Source: Alkalispirillum mobile
GTDB lineage: Bacteria; Pseudomonadota; Gammaproteobacteria; Nitrococcales; Halorhodospiraceae
DNA length: 64,000 nt
Direction: 5' to 3'
NCBI RefSeq assembly: GCF_003664325.1
Contig: NZ_RCDA01000002.1
Coordinates: 124,001 to 188,000, forward strand
Shown here: positions 35,217 through 55,155 of the stretch, in pieces
Layout: each line of letters starts with the position of its first letter
Position numbering within the stretch: position 1 is the first letter of the stretch
Notes under the pieces: generated by a model
Told to the model about the DNA's origin: nothing
What the model saw: only the letters and a program-made list of their open reading frames with translations
Database searches by the model: none
Program-made: the position numbers and the translations under genes

Positions 35217-35519
35217 ATGACCAAATCCGAACTGATCGAAGTCATTGCGAGTAAACAGCATCATCTGGCTCACAAGGATGTCGAACTCGCCGTAAAAACC
35301 TTGCTCGAGCAGATGAGCGAAACCCTGGCCGGTGGTGAGCGGATCGAGATCCGGGGTTTTGGCAGTTTTTCCCTCCATCACCGTCCCCCGCGTATCGGCC
35401 GGAACCCGAAAACCGGCGAACCGGTGGCACTGCCTGGCAAATACGTGCCACACTTCAAACCAGGGAAGGAGTTGCGCGACCGTGTAAACGAGGGTCGGCA
35501 CAACCCCATTCAGTCCTGA
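35217..35519 (+). CDS. ihfB: Integration host factor subunit beta
   Basis: 100 residues. DNA-bending protein that acts with IhfA in nucleoid structure, transcription and recombination. The N-terminus [14 protein letters not shown] and the beta-arm [22 protein letters not shown] are diagnostic, with the intercalating proline in the arm. It is downstream of rpsA as in most gammaproteobacteria. IHF also bends CRISPR leaders in some type I systems, but I saw no good IHF consensus in the leader in this window. Confidence 0.97.
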
Positions 35520-50390: not shown

Positions 50391-52142
50391 GTGAACATTC
50401 CGGCCAAGGAGTGTGAATTGGACACCCCACACCCTGCCCAACAGGAGCTGCCCTTACCCTTCCCGGAACTTTCCGGTGACCAGCCCCTGTTGCCGGCGCG
50501 CATGCTGAACGAGTTTGTCTATTGTCCTCGCCTCGCGTACCTGGAATGGGTGCAGGGCGAATGGGCGGAGTCCGCCGACACCGTTCAGGGTCGGCATGTG
50601 CACCGCCGGGTGGACCAGCGTAAAGGCAAGCCCCTGCCCGAGGCCGATGCTCTGGACAAGGAAGAAAAACTGCATGCCCGCTCGGTGACCTTATCCTCCA
50701 ACTCCCTCGGGCTGATCGCCAAAATGGATCTGGTGGAGGCGGAAGGGGGAACGGTTGTTCCGGTGGACTACAAACGGGGTCGGCGGCCCCATGTGGCAAA
50801 GGGAGCCTACGATCCAGAGCGGGTGCAGGTCTGCGCCCAAGGCATGTTGCTGACAGAACACGGTTACACCTGCGACCAGGGGATGCTCTACTTCGCGGGC
50901 TCCCGCGAGCGGGTCAACGTGGTGTTCGATGAGGAACTGGTGTCTTTGACCCGGTCATCCCTCAGCGGGTTGCGGCTACTGGCCGATTCCGGGCGTATTC
51001 CCCCTCCGCTGGAGGACAGCCCGAAGTGCAGCCGTTGTTCCCTGGTCACCCTCTGCCTGCCTGATGAAGTCAATTTCTTGAAACGGGGGCTGGGGCAGTT
51101 GCGCCCCATTGCGGTGGCCAGAGAAGAAGCCCTGCCGCTCTATGTACAAGCGAACAAGGCAAAGGTTTCAAAGCGGGGCGAGACCCTCGAAGTGAAAGTG
51201 GATGACCAGCCTGCTGCGGTCGCGCGGTTGGTGGAGACCTCGCAGGTGGTTCTGATGGGCAACGTCTACCTCACCACGCCCACCTTGCACGAACTGCTGC
51301 GACGGGAGATCCCCGTGACCTGGCATTCCTATGGTGGCTGGTTTCTGGGCCATACCGTGGGCACGGGCCACAAGAATGTAGAATTGCGAACGGCCCAGTA
51401 TCAGGGCAGCTTCGATGAACAGGTCTGTTTACGCGTGGCCCGTGGATTGGTACGCGCCAAGATACTCAATGCTCGCACCCTGATGCGTCGCAACTGGAGG
51501 GTAGACGAAGAAGACCCCAAACCGGTTCTGAAGGATATGCGCCGTTTGGCGGATCAGGCTACACGTGTGTCCGGGTTGGATAGCCTCCTTGGCGTCGAGG
51601 GTGCCGCTGCCTCGGCCTACTTCGGCCATTTCAACCGGCTGATAAGGCGAAAGGATGAGGGGGATACGTTCCGATTCGAGTTCAGTGGCCGGAACCGCCG
51701 CCCGCCCACCGATCCGGTCAATGCGTTGTTGTCGTATGCCTACAGCCTTTTGACCAGGACCTGGAGCGTAACCCTGACGGCGGTGGGCTTCGACCCCTAT
51801 CGGGGTTTTTACCACCAACCCCGATACGGCCGACCAGCCTTGGCTCTGGACATGATGGAGCCCTTTCGGCCCCTAATTGCCGATTCAGCGGTGTTGACCG
51901 CAATCAATAATGGAGAAGTCCGACCCACTGATTTCTTGAAGGCAGGCAGTGCCATAAACCTGACCCCGGATGGCCGGAAGCGGTTCATCGCCGTCTATGA
52001 ACGTAGGCTCTCGCAGGAGATCACCCATCCCTTGTTCGGCTACCGGATTAGCTATCGGCGGCTATTGGAGTTACAGGCGCGCTTGCTGGGCCGCTTTCTC
52101 TTGGGCGAGATACCCGATTACCCGAACTTCATGACCCGATGA
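50391..52142 (+). CDS. cas4-cas1: Cas4-Cas1 fusion protein (type I-G adaptation)
   Basis: 583 residues. Combines the PAM-selecting exonuclease Cas4 (about 35-230) with the spacer integrase Cas1 (about 240-583). Cas4 part: RecB-type nuclease residues D113, D126 and K128 (PVDYKRG), Q150, and Fe-S cysteines C45, C213, C216 and C222. Cas1 part: metal ligands E403 (LLGVEGAAAS), H475 (FYHQPRYG) and D487/E490 (LDMMEPFRP). The fusion is a marker of types I-G (old I-U) and some others. GTG start with AGGGGAAG upstream; an ATG at 50502 would cut the nonconserved first 37 residues. cas2 follows 15 bp later. Confidence 0.95.
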   Translation: MNIPAKECELDTPHPAQQELPLPFPELSGDQPLLPARMLNEFVYCPRLAYLEWVQGEWAESADTVQGRHVHRRVDQRKGKPLPEADALDKEEKLHARSVTLSSNSLGLIAKMDLVEAEGGTVVPVDYKRGRRPHVAKGAYDPERVQVCAQGMLLTEHGYTCDQGMLYFAGSRERVNVVFDEELVSLTRSSLSGLRLLADSGRIPPPLEDSPKCSRCSLVTLCLPDEVNFLKRGLGQLRPIAVAREEALPLYVQANKAKVSKRGETLEVKVDDQPAAVARLVETSQVVLMGNVYLTTPTLHELLRREIPVTWHSYGGWFLGHTVGTGHKNVELRTAQYQGSFDEQVCLRVARGLVRAKILNARTLMRRNWRVDEEDPKPVLKDMRRLADQATRVSGLDSLLGVEGAAASAYFGHFNRLIRRKDEGDTFRFEFSGRNRRPPTDPVNALLSYAYSLLTRTWSVTLTAVGFDPYRGFYHQPRYGRPALALDMMEPFRPLIADSAVLTAINNGEVRPTDFLKAGSAINLTPDGRKRFIAVYERRLSQEITHPLFGYRISYRRLLELQARLLGRFLLGEIPDYPNFMTR

Positions 52143-52157: not shown

Positions 52158-52448
52158 ATGAGTGAACACCTTTACATTGTGGCGTACGACATTTCCTGCC
52201 CCAAGCGGTGGCGTCGGGTTTTCAAGCTCATGAAGGGGTATGGGGAGTGGCTACAGTTATCGGTCTTTCAGTGCCGGTTATCTCGGCAGCGTCATGCAGA
52301 GCTGGTGGCCCTCCTTGACGGCATTATTCACCACGAGCATGATCACGTGGTGACCATGGAAGTCGGCTTGGCGGACAAGATCAGCCCCAAGGTTACGAGT
52401 CTGGGCAAGGATTACGAGCCCGTAGCCCGCGAACCGGTTATTGTCTGA
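52158..52448 (+). CDS. cas2: CRISPR-associated endoribonuclease/integrase subunit Cas2
   Basis: 96 residues. Forms the scaffold dimer between Cas1 dimers during spacer integration. Ferredoxin-like fold: [38 protein letters not shown], with the conserved aspartate D11 after the first strand. GGGAGGGCCGCGCG precedes the ATG. It is the last gene before the leader and array, on the same strand as cas4-cas1. Confidence 0.96.
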
Positions 52449-52695
52449 GCGCTGTCCATGGATCTGAAGTTGCCTGTTGTCGCCAAGGCTGTGCTGCCCG
52501 GGACGAGCGAGCGGTTCGGTTATGGACGTCACGCCGGGGAGCGCTCGAATTGGCGTAGATCATTAAAAATATGGGAGTTTTTCCTGTCCGGTCGAGGGTT
52601 GGCCGGCATTGGCCCTAACGCCTTCGCAGTAAACGAGCGAACCCCTCGCACTGAGGCTCCAAGAGCGTTGCCACACAGCCAGCGCGAGGGGCGCT
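52449..52695 (+). promoter_or_regulatory. CRISPR leader with inverted repeats abutting the first repeat
   Basis: 247 bp between cas2 and the array. An AT-rich core (around 52560-52580) could be part of the array promoter. CCCCTCGC (52642-52649) has an exact inverted copy GCGAGGGG (52684-52691). The last 15 bases form a second element, AGCGC-GAGGG-GCGCT (52681-52695), whose stem extends to the first G of repeat 1. The two structures share bases and would exclude each other. No clear IHF consensus was seen. Leader polarity is supported by the degenerate repeat at the other end of the array. Confidence 0.7.
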
Positions 52696-55155
52696 GATTC
52701 CACGGCTGAAATGCCGTGGCCTCATTGAAGCTGCCGCTCCTTCCAGGCGCCGATCTGCTCCCGTTGCAGATTCCACGGCTGAAATGCCGTGGCCTCATTG
52801 AAGCGGTGGTGATCGCCTTGCCCTTGTCCACGTCGCCGCCTGGATTCCACGGCTGAAATGCCGTGGCCTCATTGAAGCAAGACCATGGTCATGGTCTTCT
52901 CGCGCCTGTCGGAACTGCGATTCCACGGCTGAAATGCCGTGGCCTCATTGAAGCCTCCGGGCGGACGGTCCAGGGTGTTTGTATCATGGTGGATTCCACG
53001 GCTGAAATGCCGTGGCCTCATTGAAGCACGGCCTACGCGGCGTTGACGCACATCATCGCCCGCTGGATTCCACGGCTGAAATGCCGTGGCCTCATTGAAG
53101 CACGGCCAAGTCGTACAGCTTAGTCGCCATAATCAAAACGATTCCACGGCTGAAATGCCGTGGCCTCATTGAAGCGCCAGAGGGGGGTGGCGATACCCTA
53201 CCGGGCGATTATGATTCCACGGCTGAAATGCCGTGGCCTCATTGAAGCCATGGGCATTCGGGTCCTGGAGGGAGTACCGGGACTAGATTCCACGGCTGAA
53301 ATGCCGTGGCCTCATTGAAGCTGCTGCATGTTCTCCAGCACTCTGCGCTCTCCTTCAGTGATTCCACGGCTGAAATGCCGTGGCCTCATTGAAGCATCTG
53401 CTCAATCAGTTCTCGCACTTGGTCGCGACTGAACGATTCCACGGCTGAAATGCCGTGGCCTCATTGAAGCGATATATAGGGGGGGGACAAGCGGGCACGG
53501 TGCCAGGGATTCCACGGCTGAAATGCCGTGGCCTCATTGAAGCGTTGGCGGCGAGCTTGGCGTCGGCCACCGCCTGGTCGATTCCACGGCTGAAATGCCG
53601 TGGCCTCATTGAAGCCTCCCACGCAACCGTGCGGTAAGAAACAACGTATGCCTGATTCCACGGCTGAAATGCCGTGGCCTCATTGAAGCGTTACGCTCTC
53701 TTCCTTTTGGCTCTTGTTCTCGGGTTGATTCCACGGCTGAAATGCCGTGGCCTCATTGAAGCATGGCTGGGTGGAGTGGAGTGGTAACCCGTCCCGGTGG
53801 ATTCCACGGCTGAAATGCCGTGGCCTCATTGAAGCGTTTTGTCGCCTGTATCGAGACATTTCAACTAAACAGCGATTCCACGGCTGAAATGCCGTGGCCT
53901 CATTGAAGCGCTCCCCCTGCTCATCGAGCGGGACCGACTCACCGGGATTCCACGGCTGAAATGCCGTGGCCTCATTGAAGCACTACACCTACGTGGCAGT
54001 TCCTCGGCCAGCCCCGGGCAGATTCCACGGCTGAAATGCCGTGGCCTCATTGAAGCGATGACGCCCTCTGCCACTACCCAATTGGGGTTATCGATTCCAC
54101 GGCTGAAATGCCGTGGCCTCATTGAAGCCCTGGAGGCGCACCCGCTGGGCATCTACCGCCACGGGCGATTCCACGGCTGAAATGCCGTGGCCTCATTGAA
54201 GCTTCGCGGGCGTTTCACCCACCGCCTCCTCCTCGGCTTGATTCCACGGCTGAAATGCCGTGGCCTCATTGAAGCGTCGCGGCCGGGCCATATATTTACG
54301 GCAAGCGTAGCGATTCCACGGCTGAAATGCCGTGGCCTCATTGAAGCGGGCCCCTCGAACGCGACAATGCTGTTCACGTCCACGGTGATTCCACGGCTGA
54401 AATGCCGTGGCCTCATTGAAGCGCCACAGTCTCCAACGTCCCCATGTCCATCCCCTCGGATTCCACGGCTGAAATGCCGTGGCCTCATTGAAGCAGTGTT
54501 GGAGGCGACAAAGTAGTGATTATCGCCGGCCGGATTCCACGGCTGAAATGCCGTGGCCTCATTGAAGCGAGACGCCGGATCGGTGGGACTTGGTGCCGAT
54601 CCGCTTGTACTGATTCCACGGCTGAAATGCCGTGGCCTCATTGAAGCCTAAATTCTTTAAACGGAATGTCGTACTCTAATGAGGATTCCACGGCTGAAAT
54701 GCCGTGGCCTCATTGAAGCCACTGAGTCTGACCTGGTCATCATCGACCCCGACGCCCAGATTCCACGGCTGAAATGCCGTGGCCTCATTGAAGCATAAAT
54801 CACGTTGTCCGATACGCCTAGCGATTCGCGATTCCACGGCTGAAATGCCGTGGCCTCATTGAAGCCTTCACCCGGGCGCGGTCTACTTCGATCCGATGGA
54901 CGATTCCACGGCTGAAATGCCGTGGCCTCATTGAAGCCGCAGACGCGCCTCGTTGAGTCGCACCCGTGCCATTAGAGATTCCACGGCTGAAATGCCGTGG
55001 CCTCATTGAAGCGAGCTGCTGGACGATCCGGTGGATCAGCGCTTCCAGGATTCCACGGCTGAAATGCCGTGGCCTCATTGAAGCCCCACTCTGCCTGACT
55101 ACGAACAGGCCGTGCTGAACGGTTCCACGGCCGAAATGCCTTGGCTCGGTGAAGG
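52696..55155 (+). CRISPR. CRISPR array, 34 repeats and 33 spacers (type I-G)
   Basis: 33 repeats of 36 nt, identical as read, begin GATTCCACGG and end CATTGAAGC. Starts run from 52696 to 55049, and a 34th degenerate repeat ends the array at 55155. Each repeat holds a hairpin, CCACGGC-TGAAAT-GCCGTGG, for Cas6-type processing, followed by a tail ending ATTGAAGC, the typical 5' handle. Spacers are 35-43 nt, most 36-39; the longest (43 nt) is at 54569-54611. Leader and cas4-cas1-cas2 are at the left, so new spacers should enter at 52732. Targets were not searched. Confidence 0.99.
55121..55155 (+). repeat. Degenerate terminal CRISPR repeat
   Basis: GGTTCCACGGCCGAAATGCC followed by TTGGCTCGGTGAAGG differs from the consensus by several substitutions and one deletion. 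The hairpin arm is spoiled (GCCTTGG in place of GCCGTGG). Drift of the oldest repeat is the usual sign of the leader-distal end. Confidence 0.9.

Follow-up and report, generated by a model that had tools for sequence, protein, structure and literature searches.

Introduction

For the type I-E system of E. coli, PMC10011333 describes a leader in which IHF occupies positions -9 to -35 from repeat 1, upstream elements are located at -50 to -55, and Cas1-Cas2 is placed at -1 to -4. According to the same source, IHF bends the leader, by which the elements at -50 to -55 are brought to touch Cas1-Cas2 at the leader-repeat junction. For type I-F, Cas2 has been reported to contact conserved inverted-repeat motifs of the leader (PMC12259127). 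The presence of boxA upstream of natural CRISPR arrays has also been reported (PMC7862264, citing Stringer et al.). For type I-G, a study on Cas4/1 from M. barkeri leaves the role of IHF-like host factors open (PMC10504553).

How integrases containing Cas4 find the first repeat of an array is poorly known. Among the titles listed in the literature covered here, none dealt with leader motifs of type I-G; the two surveys in which such motifs are likeliest to appear, Santiago-Frangos et al. 2021 and Buyukyoruk et al. 2025, lie outside that coverage, so that a first description is not claimed.

The CRISPR-Cas Locus of Alkalispirillum mobile and the Leaders Compared

The leader described here is part of a stretch of 64,000 nucleotides from Alkalispirillum mobile that was analysed as a whole and is called the window. 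Its CRISPR-Cas locus is of type I-G, as the earlier note on this DNA had assigned it, with five proteins (the Cas4/Cas1 fusion, Csb1, Csb2, Csx17, and Cas3g) all matching their NCBIfam profiles above the cut-off. By the same profiles, csb2, csb1, csx17, and cas3g follow on the opposite strand. The adaptation genes and the first repeat are located as follows:

50391-52142, forward strand: cas4g/cas1g fusion gene (NF049935, E 3.3e-252)
52158-52448, forward strand: cas2 (TIGR01573, E 4.8e-9)
52696-52731, forward strand: repeat 1 of the array, 36 nt, GATTCC...GAAGC (Rfam CRISPR-DR16, 36.2 bits, cut-off 35)

Because the last array repeat (55121-55155) is degenerate and the repeats end in ATTGAAGC, the leader was assigned to 52449-52695. 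When searched as DNA against its own genome, the leader matched only itself, the remaining 32 matches being repeats of its own array. Among RNA families, only the CRISPR repeat reached the cut-off at 52300-52800; a match to the P35 family in this region (21.6 bits, cut-off 70) was taken as chance. Neither a sigma-70-like promoter, the single promoter consensus scanned, nor a terminator was found at 52400-52800.

For comparison, 82 loci were scanned, consisting of the best 80 of 324 loci found, the window's own locus (L009), and L015. The latter two were used from a first list of ten loci, in which L010-L014, on contigs equal in length to those of loci in the 80-locus set, were taken to be identical with the latter, L016, ending inside cas1, was left out, and L017 and L018 were tried among further loci (see below). 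Repeat 1 was detected in 76 of the 82 loci, with six having no detectable repeat after cas1. Removal of three near-identical leaders left 73, the window included, which are type I-G by their Cas4/1 similarity, a class that rests on Cas4/1 and not on the effector genes. The repeats are mostly 36 nt long (52696-52731 in the window), and their hairpin loop varies by one base, for which the 5' flank compensates. In the following, negative positions are counted upstream from repeat 1.

Two Inverted Repeats Adjacent to Repeat 1

The earlier note had described two inverted repeats in the leader, with a possible extra pair reaching into repeat 1. Both were found in place by direct reading, and C52680 is indeed able to pair with G52696, with which repeat 1 opens:

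52642-52649 and 52684-52691, forward strand: CCCCTCGC and GCGAGGGG, left and right arm of the first inverted repeat
52684-52691, forward strand: the right arm GCGAGGGG by itself, real, yet not conserved as partner of the left
52681-52695, forward strand: second inverted repeat AGCGC-GAGGG-GCGCT, arms AGCGC at 52681-52685 and GCGCT at 52691-52695, register not conserved

A repeat finder extended the arms of the first pair to 12 bases each, 11 of them complementary (92%; 52642-52653 and 52680-52691), and RNA folding lengthens this stem by AGCG (52636-52639) against CGCT across a bulge of 2 nt. The leader RNA of the window folds with a z of -3.9 when repeat 1 is included; for its last 60 nt alone the z is -3.6, the third lowest among the 73 leaders. 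Dinucleotide shuffles of a 248-nt stretch, made up of the leader and one base of the repeat, contained a perfect 8-bp inverted repeat (loop of 3-60 nt) in 16.5% of cases; when the last 61 nt of this stretch were shuffled, the share was 4.3%. For a 6-bp hairpin with a loop of 3-8 nt, the respective values were 29% and 15%. Each inverted repeat alone is weak evidence, since shuffles reach them often; both are real, but weakly above chance.

When the leaders of the relatives were aligned, conserved symmetry was absent. Over the 73 leaders, combining the left arm of one leader with the right arm of another gave pairing as good as that of the native arms (p 0.33-0.51, four versions), and the full match of 8 of 8 bases was found in the window alone. 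Four leaders, L019, L069, L074, and L081, share CCCCTCGC, yet none of them has GCGAGGGG; L019 has the closest Cas4/1 (76%) among the best 80 of 324 relatives. Within the last 42 bases, GCGAGGGG was identified in two of the 73 leaders, the window and L063, where it stands opposite GCCCTCGC as a 7-base match. A helix scan of the last 70 bp of the 73 leaders revealed none at either reported register; the sole helix to exceed the 95% level set by 60 column shuffles consists of three pairs inside the conserved motif described below. At the first register, pair -47/-12 has a z of 2.8 and the other seven pairs have values of -1.0 to 0.6, while all five pairs of the second register lie between -1.0 and 0.6. 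The AGCGC/GCGCT hairpin was thus rejected as an element in register, having no helix support across the 73 leaders. A stem that shapes the RNA, or a structural switch, as had been suggested from the two overlapping repeats, agrees with the low folding energy of the window leader but is without comparative support. Judged from the leaders compared, the right arm and both 'stems' are a peculiarity of the Alkalispirillum mobile genome.

Several signals exceed expectation across the set. GCGAG, the reverse complement of CTCGC, occurs within the final 18 nt in 15 of the 73 leaders, with 1.7 or 3.3 expected. Seven leaders hold an inverted repeat of 8 bp or more in their last 61 nt (1.55 expected) and five a junction stem of 5 or more in their last 17 nt (1.3 expected), the mean stem being slightly raised (p 0.03). 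The last 60 nt fold in an ordinary manner across the set, with a mean z of -0.77 versus -0.55 in a control stretch. The excess of GCGAG (52684-52688 in the window) amounts to about 4.5- to 8.6-fold, at positions scattered from -14 to -7.

A Motif Locked to the Leader-Repeat Junction

In the first inverted repeat, the left arm belongs to a sequence motif of which most leaders contain three copies, accompanied by a boxA-like element:

52641-52650, forward strand: motif copy 3, ACCCCTCGCA (consensus AGCGCTCGCA), -55 to -46 from repeat 1, containing the left arm
52540-52549, forward strand: motif copy 2, direct, AGCGCTCGAA, at -156
52506-52515, reverse strand: motif copy 1, inverted, AGCGAGCGGT (consensus TGCGAGCGCT), at -190 and 34 bp before copy 2
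52558-52570, forward strand: boxA-like element GATCATTAAAAAT (search string GCTCTTTAAAAAT), with 2 mismatches of 13 in the window

Copy 3 was identified with at most three mismatches at -56 to -54 in 72 of the 73 leaders. In 71 of 73, its core CTCGCA begins between -52 and -50 with no more than one mismatch, compared to 8 and 6 of 73 in two control windows. When the 73 leaders were aligned at the junction, the two strongest blocks were -55 to -44 (AGCGCTCGCAAA) and the last five bases (GGGCT), with weaker conservation between -34 and -7; the left arm is thereby among the most conserved stretches in the last 75 bp of the leader. A conserved element about 50-55 bp upstream of repeat 1 is present, as expected for a leader of the type I-E kind. 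On the basis of this alignment, the left arm CCCCTCGC is this position-locked motif of type I-G leaders, which probably marks the site of new spacer insertion and is a good candidate for the docking site of the Cas4/1-Cas2 integrase. Of the proposal that the inverted repeat guides Cas4-Cas1-Cas2 docking, the part that held is the left arm, which falls on the conserved, position-locked motif; the inverted repeat as such did not, its pairing being neither conserved nor covarying.

Most leaders contain AGCGCTCGCA three times, inverted at about -190, direct 33-34 bp further on, and direct at -55. In register, copy 1 has at most two mismatches in 63 of the 73 leaders, and copy 2 is present with at most two mismatches at -157 to -152 in 70; as a pair in register, with at most three mismatches each, copies 1 and 2 were found in 70, at a spacing of 33-34 bp. 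In L048, L055, and L092 these two copies are out of register, and the three leaders were excluded from the covariation and spacing tests. In the remaining 70, the distance of copy 3 to the junction has an sd of 0.48 bp and the mutual spacing of copies 1 and 2 one of 0.43, whereas relative to the junction copies 1 and 2 have values of 1.4 and 1.2. Copy 3 is thus locked to the junction and copies 1 and 2 to each other, which suggests two modules. With kinship ignored, copies 2 and 3 (p 0.009) and copies 1 and 3 (p 0.012) co-vary, and for copies 1 and 2 no significant covariation was detected (p 0.21).

The stretch from copy 1 to copy 2 folds well as RNA, with a z below -2 in 38 of 70 leaders. 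An RNA stem of copies 1 and 2 was nevertheless rejected, since their covariation is not significant and the stretch of the window folds no better than shuffles (z -0.30). The 24-bp interior between the two copies (52516-52539 in the window), as read from the 53 leaders with a gap of 24, is itself conserved, opening with a TG close to its first bases and having a run of CCCGG towards its end. The boxA-like element follows copy 2 at about -137 in 61 of the 73 leaders with at most three mismatches, and in none of the shuffles. The two rRNA leaders of the genome carry GCTCTTTAACAAA.

Elsewhere in the window, nine further matches to the motif with at most one mismatch were identified, one of them inside cas3, and none within 600 bp upstream of the cas4/1 or cas3 starts. 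On contig C5 of the same genome (110-10447), six minus-strand occurrences of AGCGCTCGAA follow one another at intervals of about 1.8-2.2 kb, resembling long repeats in tandem.

The IHF-Like Site and the Junction Element

Between copy 3 and repeat 1, two further elements were recognized in the set, and a gene for an IHF subunit is encoded in the window:

35217-35519, forward strand: gene for IHF subunit beta (NF001222, 156.7 bits, cut-off 115; TIGR00988, 156.1 bits, cut-off 119.95)
52673-52685, forward strand: place of the relatives' IHF-like site, start -23, degenerate in the window
52687-52695, forward strand: junction-proximal element, consensus GnGnGGGCT, in the window AGGGGCGCT, overlapping the right arms of the inverted repeats

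Leaders were scored against the IHF consensus WATCAANNNNTTR. A sharp peak was obtained at start -23, where a score of 7 of 9 or higher is reached by 13 of the 73 leaders, with 0.15 expected. At starts -25 to -20, the best score is at least 6 in 25 leaders (about 7 expected from shuffles) and at most 4 in 36. The best score of the window near -23 is 4 of 9, with a mean of 4.1 in shuffled leaders. Both IHF subunits are encoded by the genome, IHF-alpha (L101) and the IHF-beta listed above, each above its NCBIfam cut-offs; the third PF00216 gene of the genome is closest to HU-beta, below the cut-off for the latter.

Since the set shows an IHF-like site at -23 and the genome encodes IHF-alpha and IHF-beta, IHF more likely acts together with the motif. 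That leader symmetry acts in place of IHF is thus less likely for the set, but it is possible for the window leader alone, with its score of 4 of 9; this leader may have a weaker IHF site or use another bending route.

In the junction element, C at -2 is present in 70 of the 73 leaders and G at -5 in 56. The conserved junction sequence at -1 to -4 (consensus GGGCT) is present, the window deviating at -4. A group of leaders, among them L023, L043, and L070, has a long dyad AAGnCCTTG..CAAGGnCTT centred at about -23 (range about -34 to -12) over the IHF-like site. As a conserved hairpin, this dyad was rejected, its pairs -30/-16 to -26/-20 having z values of 0.3-1.1, though long versions occur in single leaders.

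Further Loci and Type I-C Leaders

Eleven further loci were inspected, of which L017, L018, and L108 are without an array and L104 is without a usable leader. The anchor of L109 was reset to its array, and L107, type V-B by annotation, was inspected separately. Copy 3 was found at -56 or -55 with 0-3 mismatches in six of the seven usable leaders, two of these copies having three mismatches, a level reached by about 9% of shuffles. The copy 1/2 pair is present 33 bp apart in four of the six. The array of the Rhodothermus marinus plasmid pRMAR01 (L106), which adjoins a Cas4/1-like gene of 48% identity, has the copy 1/2 pair and no copy at -55. The boxA-like sequence of this plasmid lies before the pair and not after it, about 190-120 bp before repeat 1. 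The closest sequence to boxA in L103, in L105 (from a Cereibacter plasmid), and in L109 lies at about -121 and has 3, 4, and 5 mismatches, respectively.

For type I-C, 27 loci were collected; five had no array and three a single stray anchor, so that 19 leaders were used. In 17 of the 19, a motif of different sequence, GGTTCGCG, lies between -56 and -54 with no more than two mismatches (2.2 expected in the searched stretch). An inverted upstream pair with at most three summed mismatches is likewise present in 17 of 19 (0.8 expected), its gap being exactly 25 in 14. An IHF-like site scoring at least 7 of 9 lies at -24 to -22 in seven. In L138, all three copies read GGTTAGC. In 14 of the 19 leaders, with kinship ignored, copies 1 and 2 (p 0.002) and copies 1 and 3 (p 0.016) co-vary, and no significant covariation was detected for copies 2 and 3 (p 0.27). 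From this comparison L123, L130, L131, L133, and L134 were dropped for a weak or off-spacing pair or an uncertain repeat boundary, an omission that favours the covariation result.

Types I-C and I-G thus have in common a copy at -56 to -54, an upstream inverted pair, 33 bp apart in most I-C leaders, and, in a part of the leaders, an IHF-like site at about -23. They differ in the motif, GGTTCGCG instead of AGCGCTCGCA, and in the place of the pair, commonly about -176/-143 in I-C and -190/-156 in I-G. With a common layout and a different motif, the motif follows the cas subtype, which suggests the adaptation proteins as its readers rather than a host regulator or an RNA stem.

Proposed Role of the Motif and Alternative Explanations

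We consider it likely that copy 3 serves for docking upstream of the junction in the manner of type I-E, here in an I-G form, as judged by analogy and from the leader sequences. The adaptation complex, Cas4/1-Cas2, would read copy 3 of AGCGCTCGCA as double-stranded DNA. At 46-55 bp upstream of the leader-repeat junction, copy 3 would be one DNA bend away, and folding of the leader would be brought about by a bending protein, as a rule IHF at about -23. In the folded leader, copy 3 would touch the complex seated on the junction element and repeat 1, and this contact would mark the first repeat for insertion. With the same degree of confidence, the symmetry with the junction sequence appears to be an accident of the window leader, or at most a local elaboration. 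The observations on which this proposal draws are the motif, its position, the three-copy layout, the IHF-like peak in a part of the set, and the I-C layout with another motif; from analogy, we infer the binding protein, the bend, and the effect on spacer uptake. Several results fit this proposal less well: the IHF score of 4 of 9 in the window and of at most 4 of 9 in 36 of 73 leaders, the R. marinus array without a copy at -55, the two of six further copies at -55 with three mismatches, and the non-significant covariation of copies 1 and 2 in I-G and of copies 2 and 3 in I-C.

The symmetry itself could be functional, with the arms pairing as a cruciform or in the transcript, or serving as two inverted sites for a two-fold symmetric integrase, and with the two repeats as alternative states. 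The exact 8-bp match (4.3% when the last 61 nt are shuffled), the folding z of -3.6 to -3.9, and the z of 2.8 for pair -47/-12 are in line with this, as are the excess of GCGAG (15/73), of repeats of at least 8 bp (7/73), and of junction stems (5/73), and the inverted-repeat motifs contacted by Cas2 in type I-F (PMC12259127). It is nevertheless improbable, since swapped arms pair equally well (p 0.33-0.51), the remaining register pairs have z values of -1.0 to 0.6, the four relatives with CCCCTCGC are without GCGAGGGG, the positions of GCGAG scatter, and the folding of the last 60 nt is ordinary in the set. That the whole arrangement has no function and is a chance symmetry of a GC-rich leader is the least probable explanation and is hardly credible: the two inverted repeats are weak when taken alone, but the left arm is highly conserved within the last 75 bp, and its copy recurs in six of seven further leaders. 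For the pairing, as distinct from the left arm, chance symmetry is likely.

Control of transcription would be a different role for the motif, its copies being sites of an array regulator, with copy 3 as a third operator and boxA as an antiterminator. In most leaders the boxA-like element is directly preceded by copies 1 and 2 as an inverted pair of fixed spacing, and the stretch between them has a z below -2 in 38 of 70, as such a role might predict. Copy 3, however, is phased to the junction, and the motif changes with the cas subtype. The window keeps copies 1 and 2 as motifs, yet its stretch folds poorly (z -0.30), and of its nine other motif matches one lies in cas3 and none within 600 bp upstream of the cas4/1 and cas3 starts. 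Regulation of transcription is therefore unlikely, though less so than the two explanations above.

Extending the docking reading of copy 3, a more tentative possibility, which we hold to be rather doubtful, is that the Cas4-bearing integrases of I-G and I-C share a platform of three sites. The inverted pair, 33-34 bp apart and thus fitting a two-fold symmetric complex, would be a loading or waiting site, and the copy at -55 would receive the complex via the IHF bend. The motif would have co-evolved with the Cas1/Cas4 lineage and would so encode subtype-specific recognition of the array.

The motif at -55, the two upstream copies, and the I-C layout provide exact bases to mutate, with the prediction that exchanging the motif would exchange the subtype specificity as well. 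Orphan arrays might also be assigned, and their orientation recognized, with the help of the motif.

Comparison to Known Systems

To our knowledge, type I-F systems are without Cas4. Like those of I-G, the type I-F leaders described in PMC12259127 contain motifs, also inverted repeats, that are read by the integrase together with IHF. Type I-F differs by its Cas2/3 fusion, and the likeness is one of description.

The boxA-like element of the window resembles GCTCTTTAACAAA of the genome's own rRNA leaders as well as GTTCTTTAAAA, which PMC7862264 gives for the Lens array of L. pneumophila; it has two mismatches to the search string and is a candidate boxA by its sequence.

Unlike E. coli type I-E, the I-G leaders contain two extra motif copies at about -190 and -155, and in the window the IHF site is unrecognizable. 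The likeness between the two is one of layout and comprises a junction element, a candidate bend site between -9 and -35, seen as an IHF-like site in a part of the set, and an upstream element at -50 to -55, as described for type I-E in PMC10011333.
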